A model generated the notes under the pieces. The model made no database searches. It saw only the letters and a list, made by a program, of their open reading frames with translations, and had not been told where the DNA came from. A DNA stretch of 33,215 nt from a virus, in IMG/VR virus record IMGVR_UViG_3300026519_000044, positions 1 to 33,215 of that record; one strand, given 5' to 3'. Position 1 is the stretch's first letter. Each line of letters opens with the position of its first letter. The position numbers were made by a program, and so were the translations under genes. Shown one piece after another: positions 795 to 20,824 of this stretch.

Positions 795-998
795 ATGGGA
801 AATCTCCATTGGTCAGAATCAGACTGGGAAACGGCTCCGTGCAACGGATGCCCTCATGAGCGCGACTGTGCGACACGGCGCCTATCGTGTCGGGGATTTA
901 ACGAGTGGGTGCGTCGGGGAGCGAATATGGGCCCTACACCTCCGAGCCGTGCTCATTATCTCTCACTGTTTCCTGGAGAACGCCATGGACTCCGCTGA
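795..998 (+). CDS. small Cys-rich phage protein
   Basis: A 67-residue protein with a cysteine cluster at residues 16, 19, 25 and 31 (C-x2-C-x5-C-x5-C) followed by Phe-Asn-Glu-Trp-Val. This suggests a small zinc knuckle, but I know no named family. The ATG at 795 has GGGGGAG a few bases upstream. It lies just after the regulator's terminator, so expression may need read-through. The next gene starts inside its last codons (985), suggesting coupling. It may be distantly related to the 60-residue leftward protein across the control region. Confidence 0.65.
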   Translation: MGNLHWSESDWETAPCNGCPHERDCATRRLSCRGFNEWVRRGANMGPTPPSRAHYLSLFPGERHGLR

Positions 999-1206
999 TC
1001 AGGCTGGTCAGGAGCTGGAGGAATGGCTGGAGAAGTGCATCCAGGCTGCGCGAGGCGTCAAGCCTCCACAGGATGGTCCGCTTCAGTGCGAGGACTGCGG
1101 CGCCGAGATTCCGCTTGAGCGCCGGCGCGCGGTCCCTGGGTGCACGCGGTGTGTAGACTGTCAGGATATTGTGGACCGCCTGTGCGCTTCAGGACTGTCG
1201 CCGTAG
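985..1206 (+). CDS. DksA/TraR-family C4 zinc-finger protein
   Basis: A 73-residue protein with an N-terminal acidic helix (about residues 1-30) and a C-terminal C4 zinc finger, C-x2-C-G then I-P-x-x-R-R, then P-G-C-x2-C-x2-C-Q. This is the signature of the short TraR/YbiI-like branch of the DksA family. Such proteins enter the RNA polymerase secondary channel and alter promoter choice; plasmid TraR mimics DksA plus ppGpp. Phage copies presumably retune host transcription, though a role here is inferred. The ATG at 985 gives the compact form and is preceded by CTGGAGAA. It overlaps the upstream gene's 3' end by 14 bases. A longer in-frame extension from 856 only reads through that gene and is rejected. 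Confidence 0.85.
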   Translation: MDSADQAGQELEEWLEKCIQAARGVKPPQDGPLQCEDCGAEIPLERRRAVPGCTRCVDCQDIVDRLCASGLSP

Positions 1207-2061: not shown

Positions 2062-2090
2062 TTGACCACGCGAGGGGGATTGGTTAGACT
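2062..2090 (+). promoter_or_regulatory. sigma-70-type promoter of the first structured RNA
   Basis: TTGACC at 2062-2067 (five of six) and TAGACT at 2085-2090 (four of six) are separated by 17 bases, giving a predicted start near 2097. No coding sequence follows before the terminator at 2226-2250. Confidence 0.5.
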
Positions 2091-2096
2091 TTCCTC

Positions 2097-2250
2097 TCGT
2101 GGTGTAGTGACATCATCACATTACCGCAGTTACTTGGCCTGATCAACCTGTAACGTCACGGGCTTGGGCGATTACAGGATGGGCTGGGTAGTCTGGGCGA
2201 CCAGATCCCGGTAACTGCGTCCTCCAAGGGGCCCTTCGGGGCCCCTTTCT
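2097..2250 (+). ncRNA. candidate structured non-coding RNA, about 150 nt
   Basis: Between a promoter (2062-2090) and a terminator (2226-2250) the sequence folds by eye as a multibranch RNA. A 9-bp closing stem pairs CGCAGTTAC (2125-2133) with GTAACTGCG (2211-2219). Inside it, CCTGTAA (2147-2153) pairs perfectly with TTACAGG (2172-2178), and TCTGG-GCGA-CCAGA (2192-2205) is a perfect hairpin with a GNRA tetraloop. A small GTGA/TCAC hairpin (2107-2119) precedes the closing stem. No open reading frame of note is inside. I do not recognise a known riboswitch or phage RNA class. It could be a trans-acting sRNA, a ligand-responsive attenuator or a late-operon regulator. Confidence 0.45.
2226..2250 (+). 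terminator. terminator with UUCG tetraloop ending the first RNA
   Basis: AAGGGGCCC-TTCG-GGGCCCCTTT forms a very stable hairpin with a UUCG tetraloop, followed by TCTATT. It begins seven bases after the closing stem of the structured RNA, as expected for an intrinsic terminator of that transcript. Confidence 0.75.
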
Positions 2251-2251
2251 A

Positions 2252-2280
2252 TTGACACCAGCATGTAAAGCAGAGACAAT
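2252..2280 (+). promoter_or_regulatory. candidate late promoter
   Basis: A perfect TTGACA at 2252-2257 is followed after 17 bases by GACAAT at 2275-2280 (four of six). It is the last good promoter before the late genes, with a predicted start near 2287. It begins two bases after the preceding terminator, a compact tandem arrangement. Confidence 0.6.
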
Positions 2281-2286
2281 GACTGT

Positions 2287-2369
2287 GCCCCGTCTGCGCA
2301 CGGGGTTCCGCTATAGCGGGTTGAAGGCGAAGGCGCTAGGGGCCAGGCTTCGGTCTGGCCCTTTCTTTT
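2287..2369 (+). ncRNA. structured late leader RNA (6S/put-like arrangement)
   Basis: The predicted transcript of about 80 nt starts directly with a hairpin CCCCGT-CTGCGC-ACGGGG (2288-2305), then CCGC-TATA-GCGG (2308-2319), then the terminator hairpin (2340-2369). In lambda the late promoter makes a short 6S RNA that stops at a terminator unless Q acts, and in HK022 the put RNA forms two hairpins directly downstream of the promoter and suppresses termination. The arrangement here matches that logic; the sequence itself does not let me choose between a Q-like protein and an RNA-based mechanism. No Q-like gene is seen in the window. Confidence 0.45.
2340..2369 (+). terminator. terminator between the late promoter and the first late gene
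   Basis: GGGCCAGGC (2340-2348), a TTCG loop and GTCTGGCCC (2353-2361) form a hairpin with one G-U pair, followed by TTTCTTTT. It stands 60 bases before the first late gene (2430), so full-length late mRNA must read through it or arise elsewhere. Confidence 0.75.
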
Positions 2370-2429
2370 GCCTTCACAAGTCAAGCGCCCTGTGCCATAA
2401 TTGGACAAATCCATACCGGAGGACAGGGT

Positions 2430-3086
2430 TTGAAACCTGCCGCTGTCGTTGGGGTGACCCGCCGGATCCAGACGCTGAGCGATGGGACGTGCCGGGTCGT
2501 GATCGATTTCGAGCCGGACGACCTTCTGGAGGTGGTTCAGTCCTTCGGCGCCCCGGGGACGGCCGTGGCAGTAGCTCGTCTATCTGATCCGGCCGCACTC
2601 TCTGCGGCACAATCCCACAGATTTGGAAACGAGGCCCAGGCCCTGCGCCAGTCCGGGTTCTTCCGCCGACCTGCCGTGTGGCGGCTGGTGGGGGATGATT
2701 GCGAGTACCTGTCATGGTTGCGCCTGCAGAAATGTTGCGTGAAAGGTGGGGGTCATGGCGGTGACGTTCAGGCTGCCCATGTCCGCAGGGTTGCCGCTGG
2801 TGCAGGGACTGGCGTCAAGCCAGAGTATTCAGCGGTCCCCATGTGCGCCATCCATCATGATGAGCAGCATCGAAAGGGAGAATCCGCAGTGGGGGGGCGG
2901 GAGTTTCTGGAGGAGCAGGCGGTCAAGCACGTTGAAGAATGGGCCTGGCATATGCTGAAGGCAACGCTTGGGTTTTCTCACTGGTACGAGGTCCCGCCCG
3001 AGATCCTGGCCGAGTGGGCCATGGAGCGTGACGTGTTTCACTTCCTGCCAGAGTGCTACCGGGAGGCGCTGGGTGAGCAGGTTTGA
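2430..3086 (+). CDS. HNH-type nuclease-like protein, first gene of the late cluster
   Basis: A 218-residue protein. Its C-terminal part has an HNH/DUF968-like layout: Cys-Cys at 102-103, an A-A-H at 115-117, and C-A-I-H-H-D-E-Q-H at 139-147, as in NinG/Ref-type phage nucleases that bind zinc and cut DNA. The N-terminal part (1-95) is a separate domain of unknown function ending in an F-F-R-R segment. The usual second CxxC pair of this fold is not obvious, since Gly-rich sequence follows the Cys-Cys, so metal binding may be altered. The TTG at 2430 is chosen because GGAGG lies 8 bases before it and no ATG fits. The endolysin gene starts inside its last codons, so this gene heads the lysis cluster. 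Confidence 0.7.
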   Translation: MKPAAVVGVTRRIQTLSDGTCRVVIDFEPDDLLEVVQSFGAPGTAVAVARLSDPAALSAAQSHRFGNEAQALRQSGFFRRPAVWRLVGDDCEYLSWLRLQKCCVKGGGHGGDVQAAHVRRVAAGAGTGVKPEYSAVPMCAIHHDEQHRKGESAVGGREFLEEQAVKHVEEWAWHMLKATLGFSHWYEVPPEILAEWAMERDVFHFLPECYREALGEQV

Positions 3087-4412: not shown

Positions 4413-4609
4413 GCTATACTGTTGAAAAGACAGAGAAAGGCTGGATCATACGGAACAAGTATGGCGATCAGATCAACAGGCTGTGCTGGAAAGAGAAGCG
4501 TCTCGCCGTCAGGTACGCAAAATTCCTGTCGAGCATGTGGGGCGGTGAAGTTCACGATAGCGGGGAGGCCGCAGCCGAAGCAGCGCCCCAGGACGATCAG
4601 GAAGGGTAA
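4409..4609 (+). CDS. hypothetical protein
   Basis: A 66-residue protein with no recognised family: a basic N-terminal domain (to about residue 45) that reads like a small beta-rich fold, with G-W-I-I-R-N-K-Y-G-D near residues 11-20, and an acidic Glu/Ala-rich tail. The tail overlaps the start of the RusA gene (4545) in another frame, which may explain its low complexity. The start is fixed by the ATGA junction with the preceding small membrane gene. Function unknown; expected to be co-expressed with RusA. Confidence 0.55.
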   Translation: MSYTVEKTEKGWIIRNKYGDQINRLCWKEKRLAVRYAKFLSSMWGGEVHDSGEAAAEAAPQDDQEG

Positions 4610-4943
4610 CAGGGTGTGGACATACACGCCGGCAAAAACGAAAGCATGGTGTGAACTCGTGGGGATTCTGGCGAAACTTGCGATGCGAGGCATGGCGCCA
4701 TTCACGGGCCCGGTCAGCCTGACTGTGAACGTGTGTTATGCCGGCGGGACAGGGCCTCATGACAGGCGCCCGGACCTGGACAACATCATCAAATCCGTCA
4801 AGGACGGGCTGAACGGCGTGGCATATCACGACGATTCACAGGTCTGGAGAGTGACGGCGACGAAAGTGTGGGGAGAGAAGGACGAGACAACGGTTGAGGT
4901 GAGGAGTGCACGTGGCACGGGAGAAGGTGGTCATGGAGAATGA
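4545..4943 (+). CDS. rusA: RusA-family Holliday junction resolvase
   Basis: A 132-residue RusA-type endodeoxyribonuclease. It opens with the family's short beta-strand and G-R-P-x-P-K-Q-R-P segment and has the catalytic block R-P-D-L-D-N-I-I-K, then D-G-L-N, then H-D-D-S-Q-V at about residues 77-103, which supplies the metal-binding acidic residues. RusA proteins resolve Holliday junctions, in phages probably to debranch replicated DNA before packaging. The GTG at 4545 gives the normal family length; the extension from 4422 reads another gene's frame. It overlaps the previous gene by 65 bases and the next by 11. Placing a resolvase among lysis genes is unusual but it is still just upstream of packaging. 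Confidence 0.9.
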   Translation: MKFTIAGRPQPKQRPRTIRKGNRVWTYTPAKTKAWCELVGILAKLAMRGMAPFTGPVSLTVNVCYAGGTGPHDRRPDLDNIIKSVKDGLNGVAYHDDSQVWRVTATKVWGEKDETTVEVRSARGTGEGGHGE

Positions 4944-5094
4944 GCGCCAGACGCTCAGGGTGCTGCTCGCGCCCTCCGGATACCGCGTGCGGGCCCGCAC
5001 CGAGAGGGGATGGACTGAGGTCCGTCACGGCCTGACGCTGGCGCAGGCCCACCGTGTATTCGTTGCTATGGGAGGGGAATATGGACCCCATTGA
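4933..5094 (+). CDS. small hypothetical protein
   Basis: A 53-residue basic protein with a short beta-strand pattern (Y-R-V-R-A-R-T, then G-W-T-E-V) and a final helix; no family recognised. The ATG at 4933 follows GAGAAGGTGG and gives a compact product. A GTG at 4906 preceded by GAGGTGAGGA in the same frame is an alternative that adds nine residues. It overlaps RusA by 11 bases and the next gene by 14. Confidence 0.5.
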   Translation: MENERQTLRVLLAPSGYRVRARTERGWTEVRHGLTLAQAHRVFVAMGGEYGPH

Positions 5095-5389
5095 TCGCTG
5101 GTGCGAGGAGTTCGACCTGCCCCGGGAGCACGGGGAGGAGATCCTGGAGTGGGCGCTTTACATGATGGACCAGGCAAGAACGTCAGGAGTCCAGCCCATG
5201 AGCGTGCTGCAGGCCGCAGGCATGCTCTATGCCATGGCCGGAGCTGCCTGCGACATGCCGTATCCCAAGGCCCGGGAATTGTGGGAGAAGGCCATGGAAC
5301 ACTGGTACGCAGTGGCCCGGGACGAGATGGATCATGCCGAGTCCGACGAGAGCAGGGTCGTCAGGGGCGGTCTGGAGATCGTTACATGA
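5081..5389 (+). CDS. hypothetical alpha-helical protein
   Basis: A 102-residue mostly helical acidic protein rich in Met, Ala, Glu and Trp, with no membrane segment and no recognised family. GGAGGGG lies just before the ATG at 5081, which decides the start over the upstream in-frame ATG at 5054. It overlaps the preceding gene by 14 bases and its stop overlaps the next ATG (ATGA). The composition suggests a helical bundle; the role is unknown. Confidence 0.6.
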   Translation: MDPIDRWCEEFDLPREHGEEILEWALYMMDQARTSGVQPMSVLQAAGMLYAMAGAACDMPYPKARELWEKAMEHWYAVARDEMDHAESDESRVVRGGLEIVT

Positions 5390-5469
5390 GGTGGATTGAG
5401 ATCAGTCTGTCGGTGGTGGTCGTGGTCTGGGCCGTGGTGACCACGTACCTGATCGTGATGGGGTACTGA
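5386..5469 (+). CDS. 27-residue single-span membrane peptide
   Basis: A very short gene encoding Met-Arg-Trp-Ile-Glu followed by a Val-rich membrane helix and ending Met-Gly-Tyr. It is coupled on both sides: its ATG overlaps the previous TGA (5387-5389) and its own TGA overlaps the next ATG at 5469 (TGATG). The double coupling and clean hydrophobic span argue it is a real gene of the kind automated annotation misses. A lysis-accessory role is possible by context only. Confidence 0.5.
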   Translation: MRWIEISLSVVVVVWAVVTTYLIVMGY

Positions 5470-5627
5470 TGCCCAAGGAATTCGAGAAGTGCGTCAAGCA
5501 GGGAGGCCGGGTGAGAACGAAAACCCTGTCCGGAGGCAGGTATATGAACATCTGTTTCAAGGACGGCAAGAGTTACCCCGGCGAGGTGAAAAAGAGAAAG
5601 GGCCTCTCGCGGGAGTTCATGCGATGA
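5469..5627 (+). CDS. small basic hypothetical protein
   Basis: A 52-residue Lys/Arg/Gly-rich protein with two cysteines and a beta-rich pattern (G-G-R-V-R-T-K-T, then G-R-Y-M-N-I-C-F). I recall similar short proteins in other phages but no name. Its start overlaps the previous stop (TGATG) and its TGA overlaps the next ATG (5624), so it sits firmly in the coupled cluster. Confidence 0.55.
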   Translation: MPKEFEKCVKQGGRVRTKTLSGGRYMNICFKDGKSYPGEVKKRKGLSREFMR

Positions 5628-6055
5628 AAGCGGAGATCAGGTGGTCCCTGGTACGGCTGTTCGGGTCAGTCATCTCGGCTGTAGCGGCGTCTGCGGCGGT
5701 CTGGGGGTTGGTCGGGGCCCTGCTTGCTGCAGGACTGTTCTACGGCACGTGGATTTATTACGTGGCCGTGATGCACCTGGCGTCACTCCGGGATCAATAT
5801 CGGACGCGCGGGGAGAAGCCGCCGTTCCTGTTCCGGTGGTTTGCGTGGCCGGCGGCCTACCTTTTCCTTGTCGTTGATGTGCTTTTCAATGCCGTCTACG
5901 GGACGATTCTGTTTCTTGAGGTTCCTCGTGAGTGGTTGTTCACAGATCGGGTGAGCCGGTGGAACGATTCGGACGATTGGCGCGGAGACCTGGCGAGGTT
6001 GATATGCCGGCAGCTCCTGGACCCGGCAGATCCGACGCGGAGGCATTGCTCATGA
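5624..6055 (+). CDS. phage membrane protein
   Basis: A 143-residue protein with hydrophobic segments at about residues 12-35, 38-55 and 75-100, and a charged C-terminus after a V-P-R-E-W-L-F-T motif. Proteins with this final segment occur near lysis genes of other phages of Gram-negative hosts, without a known function. The ATG at 5624 overlaps the TGA of the preceding gene (ATGA); a longer in-frame extension runs through that gene and is rejected. Its own stop overlaps the next ATG at 6052. It is presumably an inner-membrane protein. Confidence 0.65.
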   Translation: MKAEIRWSLVRLFGSVISAVAASAAVWGLVGALLAAGLFYGTWIYYVAVMHLASLRDQYRTRGEKPPFLFRWFAWPAAYLFLVVDVLFNAVYGTILFLEVPREWLFTDRVSRWNDSDDWRGDLARLICRQLLDPADPTRRHCS

Positions 6056-6486
6056 ATGAAGAATGGGTCTGGCCGGCCATTGTGATCGCGGCCACGTTCG
6101 GAGCTGTGATGGGGATGGCAGATGCCAGGGAATACCCTTACAACGAAATGGTCTATGCCCAGGAGTGGTGCCAGAAGGTGGGGGGATACGGGGCCGGTCA
6201 TCCTGCAAACACGATCCGGCACAAGGTGACAGGCAGGGTCCTAGGTTTTTCTGACTGCATCACAGAGGATTACGTCATCGAGGTGGACTTCGGCAAGAAG
6301 TGGCGGGACTGTATTGCTCAGGCGCTATGGTACTCTATGAACACCGGACTTAAAGCAAAATGTGTACTAATAACAAAGCCCTACGGTGAATACCACCGCA
6401 GGGCCTTGTTTTTCTCGCACCACTACACGCTCCCTGTGGAGGTGGATATATTCAATCCACCTGGTCAAGCAGGATCTGGCGGATGA
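6052..6486 (+). CDS. predicted exported protein with a nuclease-fold-like core
   Basis: A 144-residue protein with an N-terminal signal-like segment (about residues 7-25, with A-D-A-R as a possible cleavage region) followed by a compact domain. The core reads C-I-T-E-D-Y-V-I-E-V-D-F-G-K-K-W, then an A-x-x-Q-A-L-W-Y helix and V-L-I-T-K. The E-V-D-x-x-x-K-W pattern resembles small PD-(D/E)XK-like proteins found in phages, plasmids and bacterial genomes; catalytic activity is unproven. Two cysteines could pair outside the cytoplasm. ATG 6052 overlaps the previous stop. A terminator lies inside the 3' part of the gene (6372-6413), and the last 35 bases overlap the convergent reverse-strand gene. 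Confidence 0.6.
   Translation: MNEEWVWPAIVIAATFGAVMGMADAREYPYNEMVYAQEWCQKVGGYGAGHPANTIRHKVTGRVLGFSDCITEDYVIEVDFGKKWRDCIAQALWYSMNTGLKAKCVLITKPYGEYHRRALFFSHHYTLPVEVDIFNPPGQAGSGG
6372..6413. terminator. terminator between converging gene groups
   Basis: A long hairpin: AACAA (6372-6376) with TTGTT (6406-6410), GCCCT (6378-6382) with AGGGC (6400-6404), CGGTG (6384-6388) with CACCG (6394-6398), with two single mismatches. TTTTT follows on the forward strand; on the reverse strand the flank is also T-rich (TTGTTATTAG), so it may serve both directions. It lies inside the coding part of the gene at 6052-6486. Confidence 0.65.
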
Positions 6487-6634
6487 TCCTGGCCGCGCTC
6501 CATCCCGTCCGCTTCTGCAGGCGCCGCAGGACGGCGTTGGCGTCGGGCGGGATTTCCAGGCAGATCCTCCGGCCACCGGCACGGCGGAGCGCGTCCTTGC
6601 GCTCACGCTGCCACTTGGTCCGGTTAAAGGTCAT
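6452..6634 (-). CDS. small ribbon-helix-helix-like DNA-binding protein
   Basis: A 60-residue protein with a basic N-terminal arm (residues 1-22), then a beta-strand-like R-I-C-L-E-I-P and two helices (A-N-A-V-L-R-R-L-Q-K-R, then S-A-A-R-I-I-R-Q-I-L-L). This order and length fit an Arc/MetJ/CopG-type ribbon-helix-helix dimer that binds palindromic operators. It is the last gene of the reverse cassette, overlapping the DUF3560 gene by 11 bases. A near-perfect 18-bp palindrome lies over the cassette promoter, so autorepression is plausible. The family call is from secondary-structure pattern, not a strict motif. Confidence 0.6.
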   Translation of the reverse strand: MTFNRTKWQRERKDALRRAGGRRICLEIPPDANAVLRRLQKRTGWSAARIIRQILLDQVD

Positions 6635-7421
6635 AGCCCAGTTCCTTAGCCACCACCTGGGCCTTGTAGCGCCCGGCGTTGTTCAGCATCCGGACCCAGG
6701 CACCACGGCTCGGGCTCCACTTGAATCCGTTCCGCTTCAGCAGGGCCCGCACCTCTGCATCAGGCTTATCCGGGAACACGAACTGGACGCGGTTGTCCTC
6801 CTCCTTGTAAACCACTTCGTCCCCAAGATCTTTCTCCACGTCTTCCCGGTCAGCGGCCGCCCGAAGTTCCGTCAGGCGCTTCTCCATGCGCTTGATGTTG
6901 GCCAGGTTGTTTTTGAGCTGCCACTGGGCGAATCCGTATCCGCCAATCAGTCCTTCGTCCGTAATGGCGTTGGCCGTGCGTTCGGACAGTCCCAGCTCCA
7001 CCAGATCCGGGATGGCGTCCTTGACGTTGCCGGCCTTGGCCGCCTTGCGAATCACCCGGTTGGCGGCCTTCATCATTTCCTGCTCGTCCTTGGCCTTCTT
7101 GATCTTCTGCTCCAGCTTGACCGCCGCATCGGGGTCATCGGAAGAGATGCCACCGCGCCCGACACCCGCGGCCTTGGCGCGGTAGTAGGCGGCCTTCTTG
7201 TCCGCCTCTACCGACTTACGGATGAACGCATCCATGCGCCCGATGTCACGGCGGTGGCGTTTCTCGCTGTGGTGCCCCACCAGGATAGGCTGCCCCATGG
7301 GGATCATGTCGCCAATCTGGCGGAACCGGCGGTAGGCGTCTTGGGATTCCGCCTCCGCCTTCTCGGCCAGCTCAAGGTATCGCTGGCGCTTGGCCTCCAG
7401 TTTGCTCTCGTACTCGTTCAT
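6624..7421 (-). CDS. DUF3560-domain protein
   Basis: A 265-residue protein. The N-terminal 60-70 residues match the DUF3560 pattern: a charged helix, then G-Q-P-I-L-V-G-H-H-S-E-K-R-H-R-R-D near residues 43-59. This domain occurs in proteins of plasmids, integrative elements and phages, often with other accessory domains, and its biochemical role is unknown to me. Residues 75-190 are helical and Lys/Ala-rich. The C-terminal 50 residues contain F-K-W-S-P-S-R-G-A-W-V-R, a small module also seen in mobile-element proteins. ATG 7421 follows GGGAGG and overlaps the upstream stop (ATGA). It sits in a reverse cassette inside the late region; an anti-defence role is a guess from context. Confidence 0.75.
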   Translation of the reverse strand: MNEYESKLEAKRQRYLELAEKAEAESQDAYRRFRQIGDMIPMGQPILVGHHSEKRHRRDIGRMDAFIRKSVEADKKAAYYRAKAAGVGRGGISSDDPDAAVKLEQKIKKAKDEQEMMKAANRVIRKAAKAGNVKDAIPDLVELGLSERTANAITDEGLIGGYGFAQWQLKNNLANIKRMEKRLTELRAAADREDVEKDLGDEVVYKEEDNRVQFVFPDKPDAEVRALLKRNGFKWSPSRGAWVRMLNNAGRYKAQVVAKELGYDL

Positions 7422-7654
7422 TCGTTTTCCTCCCTCAGCACTGAAAACACCTTGATTCCGGATGCCCGCTCCAGGGCGTCCTCCGCCTCGCGGAAGGCCA
7501 TCAGGACCTCACCCTGTCCGGACTCCTCGCCGGGGTACAGCTCGCACAGCTCGGCCAGGGCCTCGGCCTCGTCGGGGGCGGCGAAGCACGCCTCCTTGAG
7601 AGCCTCCTTGTCCACGCACTCGAAGAATTCAGCGATGGTGAAGTATGAACTCAT
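7418..7654 (-). CDS. acidic hypothetical protein heading the reverse cassette
   Basis: A 78-residue strongly acidic helical protein (many Glu, Ala and Leu) without a recognised family. Small acidic proteins can be DNA mimics or partners of basic neighbours, but nothing here proves that. The ATG at 7654 has GAGGAGG about 8 bases upstream and a good promoter begins transcription near 7681, so it is the first gene of the cassette. Its stop overlaps the DUF3560 start (ATGA). Confidence 0.65.
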   Translation of the reverse strand: MSSYFTIAEFFECVDKEALKEACFAAPDEAEALAELCELYPGEESGQGEVLMAFREAEDALERASGIKVFSVLREENE

Positions 7655-7686
7655 GCTTCGTTTCCTCCTCTCTCAACTGACGCTGA

Positions 7687-7704
7687 CAGTATAGCGCAAT
7701 ACTG
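7687..7704. promoter_or_regulatory. palindromic operator over the cassette -10
   Basis: CAGTATAGCGCAATACTG is an 18-bp palindrome with a single mismatched central pair. It covers the -10 and the adjoining spacer of the reverse-cassette promoter, so a dimeric repressor bound here would block polymerase. The ribbon-helix-helix-like protein encoded by the last gene of the cassette is the obvious candidate binder (inference). Confidence 0.6.
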
Positions 7705-7715
7705 AGCCATGTCAA
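7688..7715 (-). promoter_or_regulatory. promoter of the reverse cassette
   Basis: On the reverse strand a perfect TTGACA (7715-7710) is followed after 16 bases by TATACT (7693-7688; five of six). The predicted start near 7681 gives a short leader with GAGGAGG before the ATG at 7654. The -35 overlaps the first codons of the forward small-terminase gene. Confidence 0.75.
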
Positions 7716-8179
7716 GCAAAAAAACATCAAGCAAAACAACGTCTAAGAAAAAAGTTGCCAAGCGCAAGGTCGGCAGGCCCAGCACGTACAAGCCGGAATA
7801 TTGCGATGTGGTGCTGGATATCATGCGACAGGGCGGGACAATCGCTTACGTAGCGTCAGAACTTGGTACATCCAGGTCTGTGATCTACCAATGGGCATCG
7901 AAGAATCCGGAGTTTGCGGCCGCCCTCGAAAAAGGCCGCGAGTTGACGGAGCGTTGGTGGACGCAGTTCGGTCTGGCGGGAATGAGGGGTGAGTACCCGA
8001 AATTTGCACAGGGCGCGTGGGTATTCGCGATGAAGAATATCTGCAAGTGGACAGACCGCCAAGAGATTTCGGGACCTGACGGCAAGCCGATCCGGACGGA
8101 ATCGACGCAACGACTACCGCAGGACCAGGTAGACGCCATCGTCAAGGCAGTCGAGGCGAGACATGGCAAACAGGGCTGA
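7709..8179 (+). CDS. terS: terminase small subunit
   Basis: A 156-residue protein with a Lys/Ser/Thr-rich N-terminal tail (1-20), the G-R-P-S-T-Y segment, and a helix-turn-helix around residues 45-62 (A-Y-V-A-S-E-L-G-T-S-R-S-V-I-Y-Q-W), then a helical core and a C-terminal tail containing G-P-D-G-K-P. This layout is typical of phage small terminases that recognise the packaging site, form a ring and hand DNA to the large subunit. The start is close to the reverse-cassette promoter and has only a weak ribosome site. The large-subunit gene overlaps its last 17 bases. Confidence 0.85.
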   Translation: MSSKKTSSKTTSKKKVAKRKVGRPSTYKPEYCDVVLDIMRQGGTIAYVASELGTSRSVIYQWASKNPEFAAALEKGRELTERWWTQFGLAGMRGEYPKFAQGAWVFAMKNICKWTDRQEISGPDGKPIRTESTQRLPQDQVDAIVKAVEARHGKQG

Positions 8180-9611
8180 TGATCTGTTCAGATATGTCAC
8201 GCCTGAGCAGTGGTGCACTGCTGACCTGCTGGCGTACACCTGCGCGATGTGGCCGCAGTATCAGATCGGACGGCATCATGCGCTCATCGCCCAGAAGCTG
8301 GAGGATGTGGCGCGGGGAAAATGCAAGCGATTGCTCATCATGGCTCCGCCGAGACACGGGAAAACCCTGCTGGTCAGTCAGTTTTTCCCGCCATGGTTCA
8401 TGGGTCGTGAGAGGGAGGCGTCCGTCATCTACGCTACCTATGCGCAGGACAGGGCCAATGACGTGGGGAGAGCGGTGCGGGACGTGTTGATGGACGAGAC
8501 TCATCGCATCATCTTCGGCCAGAAGTTGCGCGATGACTCGAAGGCGGTGCACAGGTTCCAGACAGACACCGGAGCCCAGTATTTCGCCGTTGGTGTCGGC
8601 GGGCCCGTGACAGGACGCGGCGCGGATGTATTCATCATAGACGATCCGCACAAGGGGCGGAAGGATGCATCGAGCGAGACCATGCAGCGCCGTGCCATCC
8701 AGTGGTACTCGTCCGTGGCTTACACACGGCTGCACCCGGGTGCGGCCATCGTGATGATCCTGACGCGCTGGGACGAGCGCGACCTGGCTGGCCAGATCTT
8801 GGAGCGCGGAGGCGAGGACTGGGAAATCATCCGCCTGCCGGCCCTGGCTGAGGATGGCGACATTTTGGGCCGGCAACCTGGGGAGGCGCTGTGGCCGGAG
8901 AGGTACAGCGCCGAGGAGCTGGAGCGCATCCGGTCGGTCATGCTGCCCGCGGACTGGATGGCCCTCTACCAGCAGGCGCCGACGGCGGCCGACGGAGACC
9001 TGTTCCGGCGAGAATGGGTGCGGCGGTACAAGGCCCTGCCGAAGGATGTAGTTTACTACGTGACGGCTGACTACGCGGTGACGGAAGGGGCCGGGGATTA
9101 CACCGAGATCGCGGTCTGGGCCGTTGATACGCGGTGGAACCTGTATGCAGTGGACTGGTGGTACGGACGTGAAGACTCCAGCGTCTGGTCCGAGAAGACC
9201 ATAGACACGATAAGGTACAAGCCCCTGTCTGCCTACTCTGAATCAGGCGTCATCCGGCGCGCGGTTGAGCCCTGGCTGCGCATGAGGATGCGTCAGCGCC
9301 AGCAGTACATCGCCATGCAGTGGCTGCCGACGATAGGAGACAAGACTGCGAGGGTACGGTCGTTCCAGGCCAGGATGGCAGCGGGACAGGTCTACTGGCC
9401 GGAGACAGACTGGGCGGACCGGGTGATCGATCAGCTCATGCGATTCCCGCACGGGCGGTATGATGATGCCGTGGATGCCTGCGGACTGATGGGCCGGGCG
9501 ATGGATGCACGAGCCGCCCATGCGGCGAAGAAGCAGGGCAGGACAGGGCTGGTGCCATTCACCCAGGAATGGCTGGAATACGAAGAAAAACGCGAGGTTA
9601 GACCGTTTTGA
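8163..9611 (+). CDS. terL: terminase large subunit
   Basis: A 482-residue packaging motor and nuclease. The ATPase domain has Walker A A-P-P-R-H-G-K-T at residues 61-68, Walker B V-F-I-I-D-D at 156-161, and a coupling segment I-L-T-R-W-D near 193-199. The RNase H-like nuclease domain starts at T-A-D-Y-A-V with Asp303 and closes with Y-D-D-A-V-D-A (Asp434, Asp435). Both domains are full length and no key residue is missing. It would dock on the portal, pump DNA into the prohead and cut it. It overlaps the small subunit upstream and shares TGATG with the portal start. Confidence 0.95.
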   Translation: MANRADDLFRYVTPEQWCTADLLAYTCAMWPQYQIGRHHALIAQKLEDVARGKCKRLLIMAPPRHGKTLLVSQFFPPWFMGREREASVIYATYAQDRANDVGRAVRDVLMDETHRIIFGQKLRDDSKAVHRFQTDTGAQYFAVGVGGPVTGRGADVFIIDDPHKGRKDASSETMQRRAIQWYSSVAYTRLHPGAAIVMILTRWDERDLAGQILERGGEDWEIIRLPALAEDGDILGRQPGEALWPERYSAEELERIRSVMLPADWMALYQQAPTAADGDLFRREWVRRYKALPKDVVYYVTADYAVTEGAGDYTEIAVWAVDTRWNLYAVDWWYGREDSSVWSEKTIDTIRYKPLSAYSESGVIRRAVEPWLRMRMRQRQQYIAMQWLPTIGDKTARVRSFQARMAAGQVYWPETDWADRVIDQLMRFPHGRYDDAVDACGLMGRAMDARAAHAAKKQGRTGLVPFTQEWLEYEEKREVRPF

Positions 9612-11386
9612 TGCACGAAGAACATGAGGAGCAGAAGCTCCCAAAAATCTGGTCCGAGCGCATCGAGAAGGCGCTGAAGGACGAGAGGCACGAGCACAAG
9701 CGTATCACCGCGCTACGGCAGTATGTCTCAGGACGGTATTCCGACGACATGCGAAGCCAGTACGCGGTCCGCGTCAACGTGGTTATGGCCACGCTCCAGG
9801 GCCTCATGCCACACGTTTACGCGCAGGCCCCGGACGTGGCGGTCACGGCTGTCCCGGGCGTCACCGGGACGGTGGATCCGATGGTCAAGCGTTTTGCTGG
9901 CACACTGGAGGGTGTGCTGTCACGGCAGCTCAAGGACGCTAGGCTGCGCAAGCTGGGCAAGCGGTGCGTGCGCGCGGCCATGACCACTGGGCTGAGCTGG
10001 GCCAAGGCGTCGTACCAGCGCGACATCTACCGCGATCCGCACATCGAGCGCCGGATCCAGGATGCCCAGGAAGAACTCAGGCGCCTGGAGCATCTGATGG
10101 ATGAGTGCGAGGACGACACGAAGGAGGAGCACGAGGCCAAGATGGAGATGCTCCGCGATCTCGTCAGGTCGCTGGAGGAGAAGGTCGAGGTCGTCCGACA
10201 GGAAGGCTTGGTGCTTGACTACGTGAGGGATGAGGACATCATCGTGTCACCTGCGGTGGCGACGCTGGAGGACTACATCTTTGCTCCCTGGATCGCGCAT
10301 CGGATCTGGATGACCCAGGACCAGGCCGCAGAGACATTCGACCTGGATTCCGATGACCTGGCCAAGGCGGACAAGTGGCGCAAGCCGGGCGACGAAGATA
10401 CCGATTCGACCGACAGGTCGCAATGGGTTGCGGTGCTGGAGATCTGGGACTCAACGTTCAAGACGGTCTATACCCTCATTCAGGGCATGGATAAGTGGGC
10501 GCGAGATCCGTTCTCTCCCACGAAGACCGGGGAGCGGTGGTACCCGTTCTTCCTGCTGGCGTTCAACTGGGTCGATGGTGAGCGAAGGCCGATCAGCGAT
10601 GTCGAGCTGTGGGCCGACCTGCAGGACGAATACAACGACACCCGGACGAAATACCGTGAGCACCGAAAGAAGGCCGTGCCGGCCAGGGTGGGGGCGGCTG
10701 GCTCACTGAGCCCGGAAGACGCCAGGAAGCTGGCCAATCCTGATCTCAACGAGTACGTCCTGGCAGACCTTCAGACTGGCCAAAGGGCATCGGATGTCGT
10801 GGGGATCATTCCCTATCCTCCCGTCGATCCGGGGCTGTATGACACCAGCCAGATCAGGTCTGACCTGGAGATGGTCTCCGGTCTGCAGGACGCCGCTCGC
10901 GGCACCGTGGCCAGGGCCAAGACAGCGACAGAGGCGGAGATCCTGCAGATGGGGCTCGTCTCGCGCACGACAGAGAGACAAGCTTCGGTGGAGGAGTGGA
11001 TCGAGGAAATGGCACAGTATTGTGCCGAGATCTTGCTGCAGAACATGACCAAGGAGCAGGTGATGAGAATCGTCGGGCCGGATGCGGTGTGGCCGGAGCT
11101 TGACAAGGAAGACATCTTCAACATGGTCAACATCGAGGTCCGTGCCGGGACCACTGGACGGCCGGACCAGCGCAGAGAACAGCAGACCTGGATGCAGCTT
11201 CTTCCTCTCATCCAGCAGACCATCCAGCAGATCGCCCAGGCCGAGGCCCAAGGGATGGAATCCTTGGCCAATGCCGGAAGGTATCTGCTCCAGGAAACAC
11301 TCAGGCGGTTTGACGAAACCATAGACATTGACGAGGTGATGCCCAAGCAGGCAGCGCCGATGCAACTTGTGGAGGGTGTGCAATGA
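9611..11386 (+). CDS. portal protein
   Basis: A 591-residue portal of the podovirus type, forming the dodecameric ring at the head vertex through which DNA enters and leaves. It is identified by position between terminase and scaffold, length, and portal-like features: an N-terminal R-V-N-V-V-M-A-T-L-Q-G-L segment, a long charged coiled stretch (about residues 135-200), a conserved middle with aromatic strands, and an A-R-G-T-V-A-R-A-K-T-A-T-E-A segment near 430-445, as in portal core helices. The ATG at 9611 overlaps the terL stop (TGATG); a TTG one codon upstream is less likely. A Gln-rich helical C-terminus ends at the scaffold start (ATGA). Confidence 0.85.
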   Translation: MHEEHEEQKLPKIWSERIEKALKDERHEHKRITALRQYVSGRYSDDMRSQYAVRVNVVMATLQGLMPHVYAQAPDVAVTAVPGVTGTVDPMVKRFAGTLEGVLSRQLKDARLRKLGKRCVRAAMTTGLSWAKASYQRDIYRDPHIERRIQDAQEELRRLEHLMDECEDDTKEEHEAKMEMLRDLVRSLEEKVEVVRQEGLVLDYVRDEDIIVSPAVATLEDYIFAPWIAHRIWMTQDQAAETFDLDSDDLAKADKWRKPGDEDTDSTDRSQWVAVLEIWDSTFKTVYTLIQGMDKWARDPFSPTKTGERWYPFFLLAFNWVDGERRPISDVELWADLQDEYNDTRTKYREHRKKAVPARVGAAGSLSPEDARKLANPDLNEYVLADLQTGQRASDVVGIIPYPPVDPGLYDTSQIRSDLEMVSGLQDAARGTVARAKTATEAEILQMGLVSRTTERQASVEEWIEEMAQYCAEILLQNMTKEQVMRIVGPDAVWPELDKEDIFNMVNIEVRAGTTGRPDQRREQQTWMQLLPLIQQTIQQIAQAEAQGMESLANAGRYLLQETLRRFDETIDIDEVMPKQAAPMQLVEGVQ

Positions 11387-20167: not shown

Positions 20168-20824
20168 ATGTGCACTGGCGGAGAACTTGCGCTCATACTC
20201 GGTGGAACGGCCTTGTCATACAAGGCAAATCGAGATGCCGTTCGCAGGATGCAGCGCGAATCGGAACGGGCGGCGCTCCAGCAGCTTCGCAGGACAGAAG
20301 AGGCCCAGCAGGCCATTGCCGGGCGAACCGAGGAGATCACACCGGAGGCGAGAGCTGAGAGAAAGCAGGAAATCGTCGAGGAGAGCCTGGGATCTTTCCA
20401 GAAGGCGCTCGATGATGCGGTGGCCAGGGGTGAGAATGTCGCCGGCCCTGAAGTATCAGGCGCCCTGTCGGACGCTTTCATCACTGGGAGGGCGCGCAGG
20501 ACAGCAGAAAATCTGCGCAAGGCGTCCCGCATGGCCGAGCTGATTGCACGAATTCGTGGAGCCGGAGGATTACGGCAGGAAGAGGCGTTTGACGTTGCCG
20601 ACCTTGCCGGCCGCCTTGGTCTGATTGCGAATTTTGCTGGCGGCGAGGGAGTTGTTGCTGAGAACAGGATCGCACAGGCCGGAAACCCTGATCCACTTCT
20701 GTCTGTCATAGGACAGGGGCTAACTGCATACGGAATTGGCAGGGCATACAGCAAGGCGTATACGGGCAAGAAAACGCCGAGCCTGACGGGCAAACAATAT
20801 CCGGTCGGAAAGAGGGGCTTCTGA
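20168..20824 (+). CDS. internal virion protein with MCTGG N-terminus
   Basis: A 218-residue protein beginning Met-Cys-Thr-Gly-Gly and a short hydrophobic segment, then long Arg/Glu/Ala-rich helices (residues 20-150), and a Gly/Ala-rich C-terminal part with a possible membrane-interacting stretch near 180-200. The start resembles that of the gene just upstream, suggesting a related class of ejection proteins. I take the ATG at 20168 because it begins at the Cys-Gly motif; a TTG two codons upstream (20162) is possible. It overlaps the following gene (TGATG). Confidence 0.65.
   Translation: MCTGGELALILGGTALSYKANRDAVRRMQRESERAALQQLRRTEEAQQAIAGRTEEITPEARAERKQEIVEESLGSFQKALDDAVARGENVAGPEVSGALSDAFITGRARRTAENLRKASRMAELIARIRGAGGLRQEEAFDVADLAGRLGLIANFAGGEGVVAENRIAQAGNPDPLLSVIGQGLTAYGIGRAYSKAYTGKKTPSLTGKQYPVGKRGF

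Follow-up and report, generated by a model that had tools for sequence, protein, structure and literature searches.

A candidate tightly folded small RNA in a tandem promoter-to-terminator array ahead of the late genes of a P22-like phage

In the late leader of lambdoid phages, RNA polymerase starts at pR′ and halts at tR′, and Q allows its passage. The 6S RNA of phage lambda is a stable by-product of this leader. In Stx phages, the PR′–tR′ transcript is made constitutively and terminated, yielding the noncoding RNA StxS, which undergoes RNase E processing, binds Hfq and base-pairs with mRNA (PMC7873438). Pairs of Hfq-binding small-RNA genes, AsxR/EcOnc27 and AgvB/EcOnc06, lie in the late-promoter/lysis region, and at least one of these dyads has an antisense arrangement (PMC7873438). 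In Gifsy-1, the small RNA IsrK comes from a promoter that is read through a terminator into prophage genes, isrK lies downstream of antQ, and Q lets polymerase pass the terminator that precedes the late genes (PMC4825925). The put RNA of HK022, which has ∼70 nt in two stem-loops and serves early operons, brings about antitermination in cis via the zinc-binding domain of the RNA polymerase beta′ subunit (PMC9378689). Phage late-control regions are repeated sources of small RNAs, and enteric phages account for most of the known cases. The sample would be widened by a tandem pair in a P22-like phage that is remote from that group.

The stretch analyzed here (the window) is the whole 33,215-base IMG/VR record IMGVR_UViG_3300026519_000044, which is classed as a virus. 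We assign the phage to the P22-like group because of its terminase (phrog_38), portal, head protein, endolysin and spanin-like genes and because of its nearest named relatives. By terminase, these are Pseudanabaena phage Pam1 (46%) and phage CBW1004C-Prop1 (42%), whose annotation includes needle, adaptor and DNA-stabilizing proteins. The segment of interest, RNA 1, stands at the Cro-to-late junction of this phage. On its 3′ side, the HNH gene is followed by endolysin (phrog_315), spanin-like and RusA genes, and the terminase, portal and capsid genes are on the same strand. The DksA/TraR-like gene on its other side sits where a late regulator might be sought. The features of the region are as follows.

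455–757: Cro-like repressor (phrog_35, YdaS/P22_Cro), upstream of RNA 1
856–1206, plus strand: DksA/TraR-like zinc-finger gene (phrog_54), adjoining the Cro-like gene, upstream of RNA 1
2062–2090, plus strand: promoter-like site P_a, TTGACC-17-TAGACT, 9/12 consensus match, predicted start near 2097
2097–2250, plus strand: predicted small RNA 1, ∼150 nt, without a coding ORF, minimum free energy −72.4 kcal/mol
2099–2124, plus strand: 5′ hairpin of RNA 1, 7+3 bp, abutting P1, from the ensemble fold
2125–2219, plus strand: predicted three-way junction of P1, the P2 arm and P3, pairing probabilities 0.83–1.00
2220–2225, plus strand: single-stranded linker UCCUCC, the main unpaired stretch of RNA 1 outside loops
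2226–2253, plus strand: intrinsic-terminator-like hairpin T1 with tail, UUCG loop, modest U-tract
2252–2280, plus strand: promoter-like site P_b, TTGACA-17-GACAAT, 10/12, beginning at the T1 tail
2287–2370, plus strand: predicted small RNA 2, two short hairpins, a linker and UUCG terminator T2 (stem 2338–2363)
2373–2401, plus strand: promoter-like site P_c, TTCACA-17-CATAAT, with extended −10, at the HNH gene
2430–3086, plus strand: HNH endonuclease (phrog_96), first gene of the late/lysis region, GGAGGA then a TTG start

The order on the plus strand is thus P_a, RNA 1, T1, P_b, RNA 2, T2, P_c and the HNH gene. Two promoter-to-terminator units stand in tandem, at 2062–2253 and 2252–2370, and RNA 1 is the product predicted for the first. 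Within the 390 bases from 2040 to 2430 there are three plus-strand promoter-like sites, all with 17-bp spacers, against 0.1 expected; these sites are predicted by consensus matching. The T1 hairpin, AAGGGGCCC-UUCG-GGGCCCCUU (2226–2247, −18.8 kcal/mol), is followed by UCUAUU; it was missed by a generic terminator scan and caught by a script that uses a different stem and tail rule. Across the whole 33-kb contig, exactly two promoter-to-terminator units are found on the plus strand, and both are here and adjacent. Shuffled contigs hold 0.03 units per strand, and a tandem pair arose in 0 of 200 shuffles. This rarity is the strongest evidence, at the level of sequence, that the region makes short RNAs. 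Very probably, the phage makes a tightly folded noncoding RNA of ∼150 nt just before its lysis and late genes.

Two smaller features of these units may be recorded. An imperfect, operator-like inverted repeat, CCACGCGAGG/CCTCTCGTGG, surrounds the −10 element of P_a (2066–2075/2092–2101, 9/10). In RNA 2, the linker GAAGGCGAAGG can pair with sequence just beyond T2, which would give a long hairpin upon readthrough.

The predicted minimum-energy structure of 2097–2250 consists, in order, of the 5′ hairpin, the three-way junction and the UUCG terminator hairpin. P1 is a perfect 9-bp helix, CGCAGUUAC (2125–2133) with GUAACUGCG (2211–2219), which an inner U-G pair lengthens to 10 bp (2125–2134/2210–2219). 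CCUGUAA (2147–2153) and UUACAGG (2172–2178) form P2, a perfect 7-bp helix. P3, GUCUGG-GCGA-CCAGAU (2191–2206, with pairing of 2191–2196 and 2201–2206), sits on a further 3-bp GGG/CCC stem (2186–2188/2207–2209). Pairing probabilities are 0.95–1.00 for P1, 0.91–1.00 for P2 and 0.83–1.00 for P3. An earlier note on this DNA had described three mutually compatible helices in a gene-free stretch bracketed by a promoter and a terminator. All three helices are present at the coordinates given there and are compatible in the predicted fold, and the bracketing by P_a and T1 is borne out by the sequence. The GNRA-capped hairpin, described there as 5 bp, does carry a GNRA loop (GCGA), and its stem is 6 bp here including one G-U pair. 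The 5′ hairpin at 2099–2124, the second unit and the third promoter were absent from that description. Because the 5′ hairpin scores a z of only −1.1 when folded alone, it is weak evidence. GTTAC-like motifs are repeated in the stems; an operator reading of them was considered by eye.

The fold is more stable than its composition would predict. Positions 2100–2250 reach −69.1 kcal/mol, compared with −53.2 ± 4.1 in dinucleotide shuffles (z −3.87, 0 of 200 as low), and the junction without the terminator gives z −3.38, again with 0 of 200 shuffles as low. RNA 2, folded without its terminator, is not significant (z −1.70). Among 105-nt windows of the contig, 10 of 946 (∼1%) score as low as the junction, so folding energy alone is notable and not overwhelming. 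Likewise, 9-bp inverted repeats with a span like that of P1 occur in the contig as 25 raw matches, ∼13 of them distinct; a 9-bp helix enclosing a 7-bp hairpin is a single case. The earlier judgment that this combination of elements is unlikely by chance is upheld by the two z-scores, this lone nested arrangement and the low expectation for promoter-to-terminator units.

The open reading frames across RNA 1 have no family match and no clearly coding codon score. Since the codon score separates short genes poorly (the Cro-like ORF is also negative), it is weak evidence. A minus-strand ORF at 2172–2414 was rejected as a gene: no family matches it, its codon score is low, and both terminators lie within it. 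The 15th release of Rfam (Rfam 15) gave 0 matches to its covariance models at gathering thresholds, those of riboswitches, 6S/SsrS and tmRNA included. The best subthreshold match in RNA 1 is BjrC68, at 22.7 bits against a threshold of 39, over 2185–2254 with the terminator included. The earlier failure to match the RNA to a known one is reproduced within Rfam, with only subthreshold noise. The sequence of RNA 1 is new to Rfam 15, and its kind, a small RNA of a phage late-control region, is already known.

Relatives of RNA 1 were sought in several ways. When IMG/VR was scanned with exact or gapped patterns, those for P1, the P2 arm, the P3 hairpin and the minus-strand unit described below matched sequence that is unrelated as judged by context, and RNA 2 had no match. 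A blastn search of phage and plasmid records gave only matches of 22 to 39 nt with E ≥ 0.06. The HNH protein yielded no relatives in IMG/VR or phages, and the terminase alone as a query gave only a 29% match. Relatives from terminase alignment, at 46–48% at best, supplied 160 loci, which six other loci brought to 166. In these 166 loci, a covariance model with RNA 1 as its only sequence gave no credible match (best 17.4 bits, compared with 128.7 for the window itself), and its best score in the pattern-scan loci plus Pam1/Pan3 was 16.4 bits. In 7 + 369 + 297 genomes (∼670) it gave two matches, of 21 and 23 bits, both with P1 broken; such matches are expected by chance given the number of genomes searched. 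A single-sequence model reaches close relatives only, so an empty search is no proof of absence. By these searches, which gave chance-level matches only, RNA 1 is an orphan sequence. Of the "new structured RNA" that had been proposed, the discrete, noncoding, structured unit stands as a sequence feature; a conserved family finds no support, as no second member was found.

In 75 terminase-related loci (652 kb of upstream sequence), the rule applied to the contig finds only three promoter-terminator units, so the tandem layout is not shared across the clade. The gap before terS in Pam1 holds one unit (20534–20631), in which a strong terminator comes after a 9/12 promoter; it is similar in layout and unrelated in sequence.

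The explanation that we tentatively favor, at somewhat less than an even chance, is that a phage late promoter gives rise to RNA 1 as a short leader transcript that is terminated. The RNA polymerase of the host would start at P_a, transcribe ∼150 nt that fold as they emerge, and stop at T1. Late in infection, a modified polymerase would pass T1, T2 and later terminators and so reach the genes for lysis and structure. Once released, the RNA would persist as a stable by-product, like lambda 6S RNA, and it may act in trans as StxS does. At the sequence level, a promoter, a predicted short transcript and an intrinsic terminator (the latter with a modest U-tract) do follow one another, and they lie between early control genes and lysis and late genes on the same strand. 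Farther downstream there are a plus-strand terminator between the lysis genes and terS (6378–6404, z −4.6), an opposing gene block between the same genes (6624–7654), and, from 4449 to 10215, no plus-strand promoter that scores 9/12 or better; any long late transcript would therefore have to cross terminators. The single unit before terS in Pam1 is likewise in favor of a leader.

As a predicted short transcript that runs from promoter to terminator where the late genes begin, with lysis genes first, RNA 1 resembles the lambda pR′–6S RNA–tR′ arrangement. The locus differs in its two tandem units, which are unlike a classical single leader, in its extra promoter at the first gene, and in having no recognized Q and no sequence relation that we found. 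Against a leader, P_c lies right at the HNH gene, so the late genes may be transcribed independently of readthrough from P_a, and the scarcity of such units in the 75 related loci also counts. For a Q-type antiterminator, there was no match to PF06530 or PF03589, and hmmscan applied to the main ORFs near the junction gave none, in a contig that may be a fragment; a PF06323 search was uninformative, its control being silent. RNA 1 would resemble IsrK in being a small RNA whose promoter is read through a terminator, but isrK lies downstream of antQ and no Q-like gene is recognized here. Like StxS, RNA 1 would be a noncoding late-promoter leader that ends at the leader terminator. StxS is characterized by its Hfq binding, processing and pairing, whereas RNA 1, known from sequence alone, is predicted to be far more closed.

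This closed fold also bears on a second, rather unlikely explanation, in which RNA 1 and RNA 2 are stand-alone genes for trans-acting sRNAs with no leader role, whose targets would be mRNAs or proteins of the phage or its host. Both units come with a separate promoter and terminator, P_c serves as a promoter for the late operon itself, and a third unit, on the minus strand (1445–1322), exposes CU-rich sequence. The AsxR/EcOnc27 and AgvB/EcOnc06 pairs are comparable as small-RNA gene pairs in a late-promoter/lysis region, although RNA 1 and RNA 2 are in tandem on one strand. RNA 1 could pair via its UCCUCC linker or the P2 loop, or could bind a protein by its fold; yet it is predicted to be almost fully paired, with little open seed. 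The linker together with position 2219 complements GGAGGAC (2418–2424) ahead of the HNH gene. This complementarity is that of any CCUCC to a Shine-Dalgarno sequence, and it is weak evidence because GGAGGAC is present eight times on the plus strand of the window. The U-tail of RNA 1 is short, whereas a typical Hfq-binding sRNA has a longer one. In support of independent genes, E. coli O157 Sakai has at least eight lambdoid phages with a dyad of Hfq-binding sRNAs in the interval from lysis genes to late promoter (PMC7873438).

A quite improbable alternative to the terminated leader is a put-like role for RNA 1: as an antiterminator in cis, of a new class whose fold is unrelated to that of HK022 put, it would open the late operon. 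The nascent fold would bind the RNA polymerase that is transcribing it and carry that enzyme across T1, T2 and the terminators beyond; no Q protein would be needed, because the folded RNA itself would act on the transcribing polymerase. A compact fold at the predicted 5′ end, near the promoter as putL is (PMC9378689) and upstream of terminators that must be crossed, is consistent with this mechanism, as is the lack of a recognized Q gene. The structures disagree: put is two stem-loops with no closing stem, which RNA 1 is not, being a closed 95-nt junction with a 9-bp closing stem in a late region. Should the closed junction prove to act in cis on RNA polymerase, the phage would have a late switch that needs no protein.

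It is also improbable, to much the same degree, that the inverted repeats act at the DNA level or are incidental and that no stable RNA is made. The modest scores of P_a (9/12) and of the T1 U-tract, the equally stable windows and common 9-bp repeats of the contig, and the operator-like repeat over P_a (2066–2075/2092–2101) are all compatible with this possibility. The GNRA and UUCG loops, the compatible nested helices and the improbable order of promoter, terminator, promoter, terminator, promoter and gene argue against it. A riboswitch or other ligand-sensing leader, suggested by a multihelix junction upstream of a terminator, is highly improbable and was rejected, since T1 and the junction share no bases and fold together without competing, no gene directly follows T1, and no Rfam riboswitch family matches. 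The sensing role that had been proposed for this entrance to the late region lacks support for the same absence of shared bases and because the next element after T1 is another promoter. RNA 1 is, on its sequence features, a well-delimited candidate.

Other elements of the contig deserve mention. The minus-strand unit at 1322–1445 has a TTGACT-16-TATAAT promoter match (11/12), a predicted transcript of ∼85 nt and a strong terminator. It includes the unpaired CU-rich stretch CUCUUCCUCCUCUU. Its subthreshold matches in Rfam are to SorX, GcvB and PrrF, and the terminator seems to account for most of this likeness. Opposite this unit, the plus strand reads AGGAGG-ATG-TTG-TTG-TGA. On the plus strand at 1191–1365, two neighboring windows (z −5.3 and −5.7) are more stable than the RNA 1 region; they hold several short hairpins and the opposite-strand reading of the terminator of the minus-strand unit. 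Just before terS, the palindrome CAGTATAGCGCAATACTG (7687–7705) lies over the −10 element of a minus-strand promoter, TTGACA-16-TATACT (11/12).
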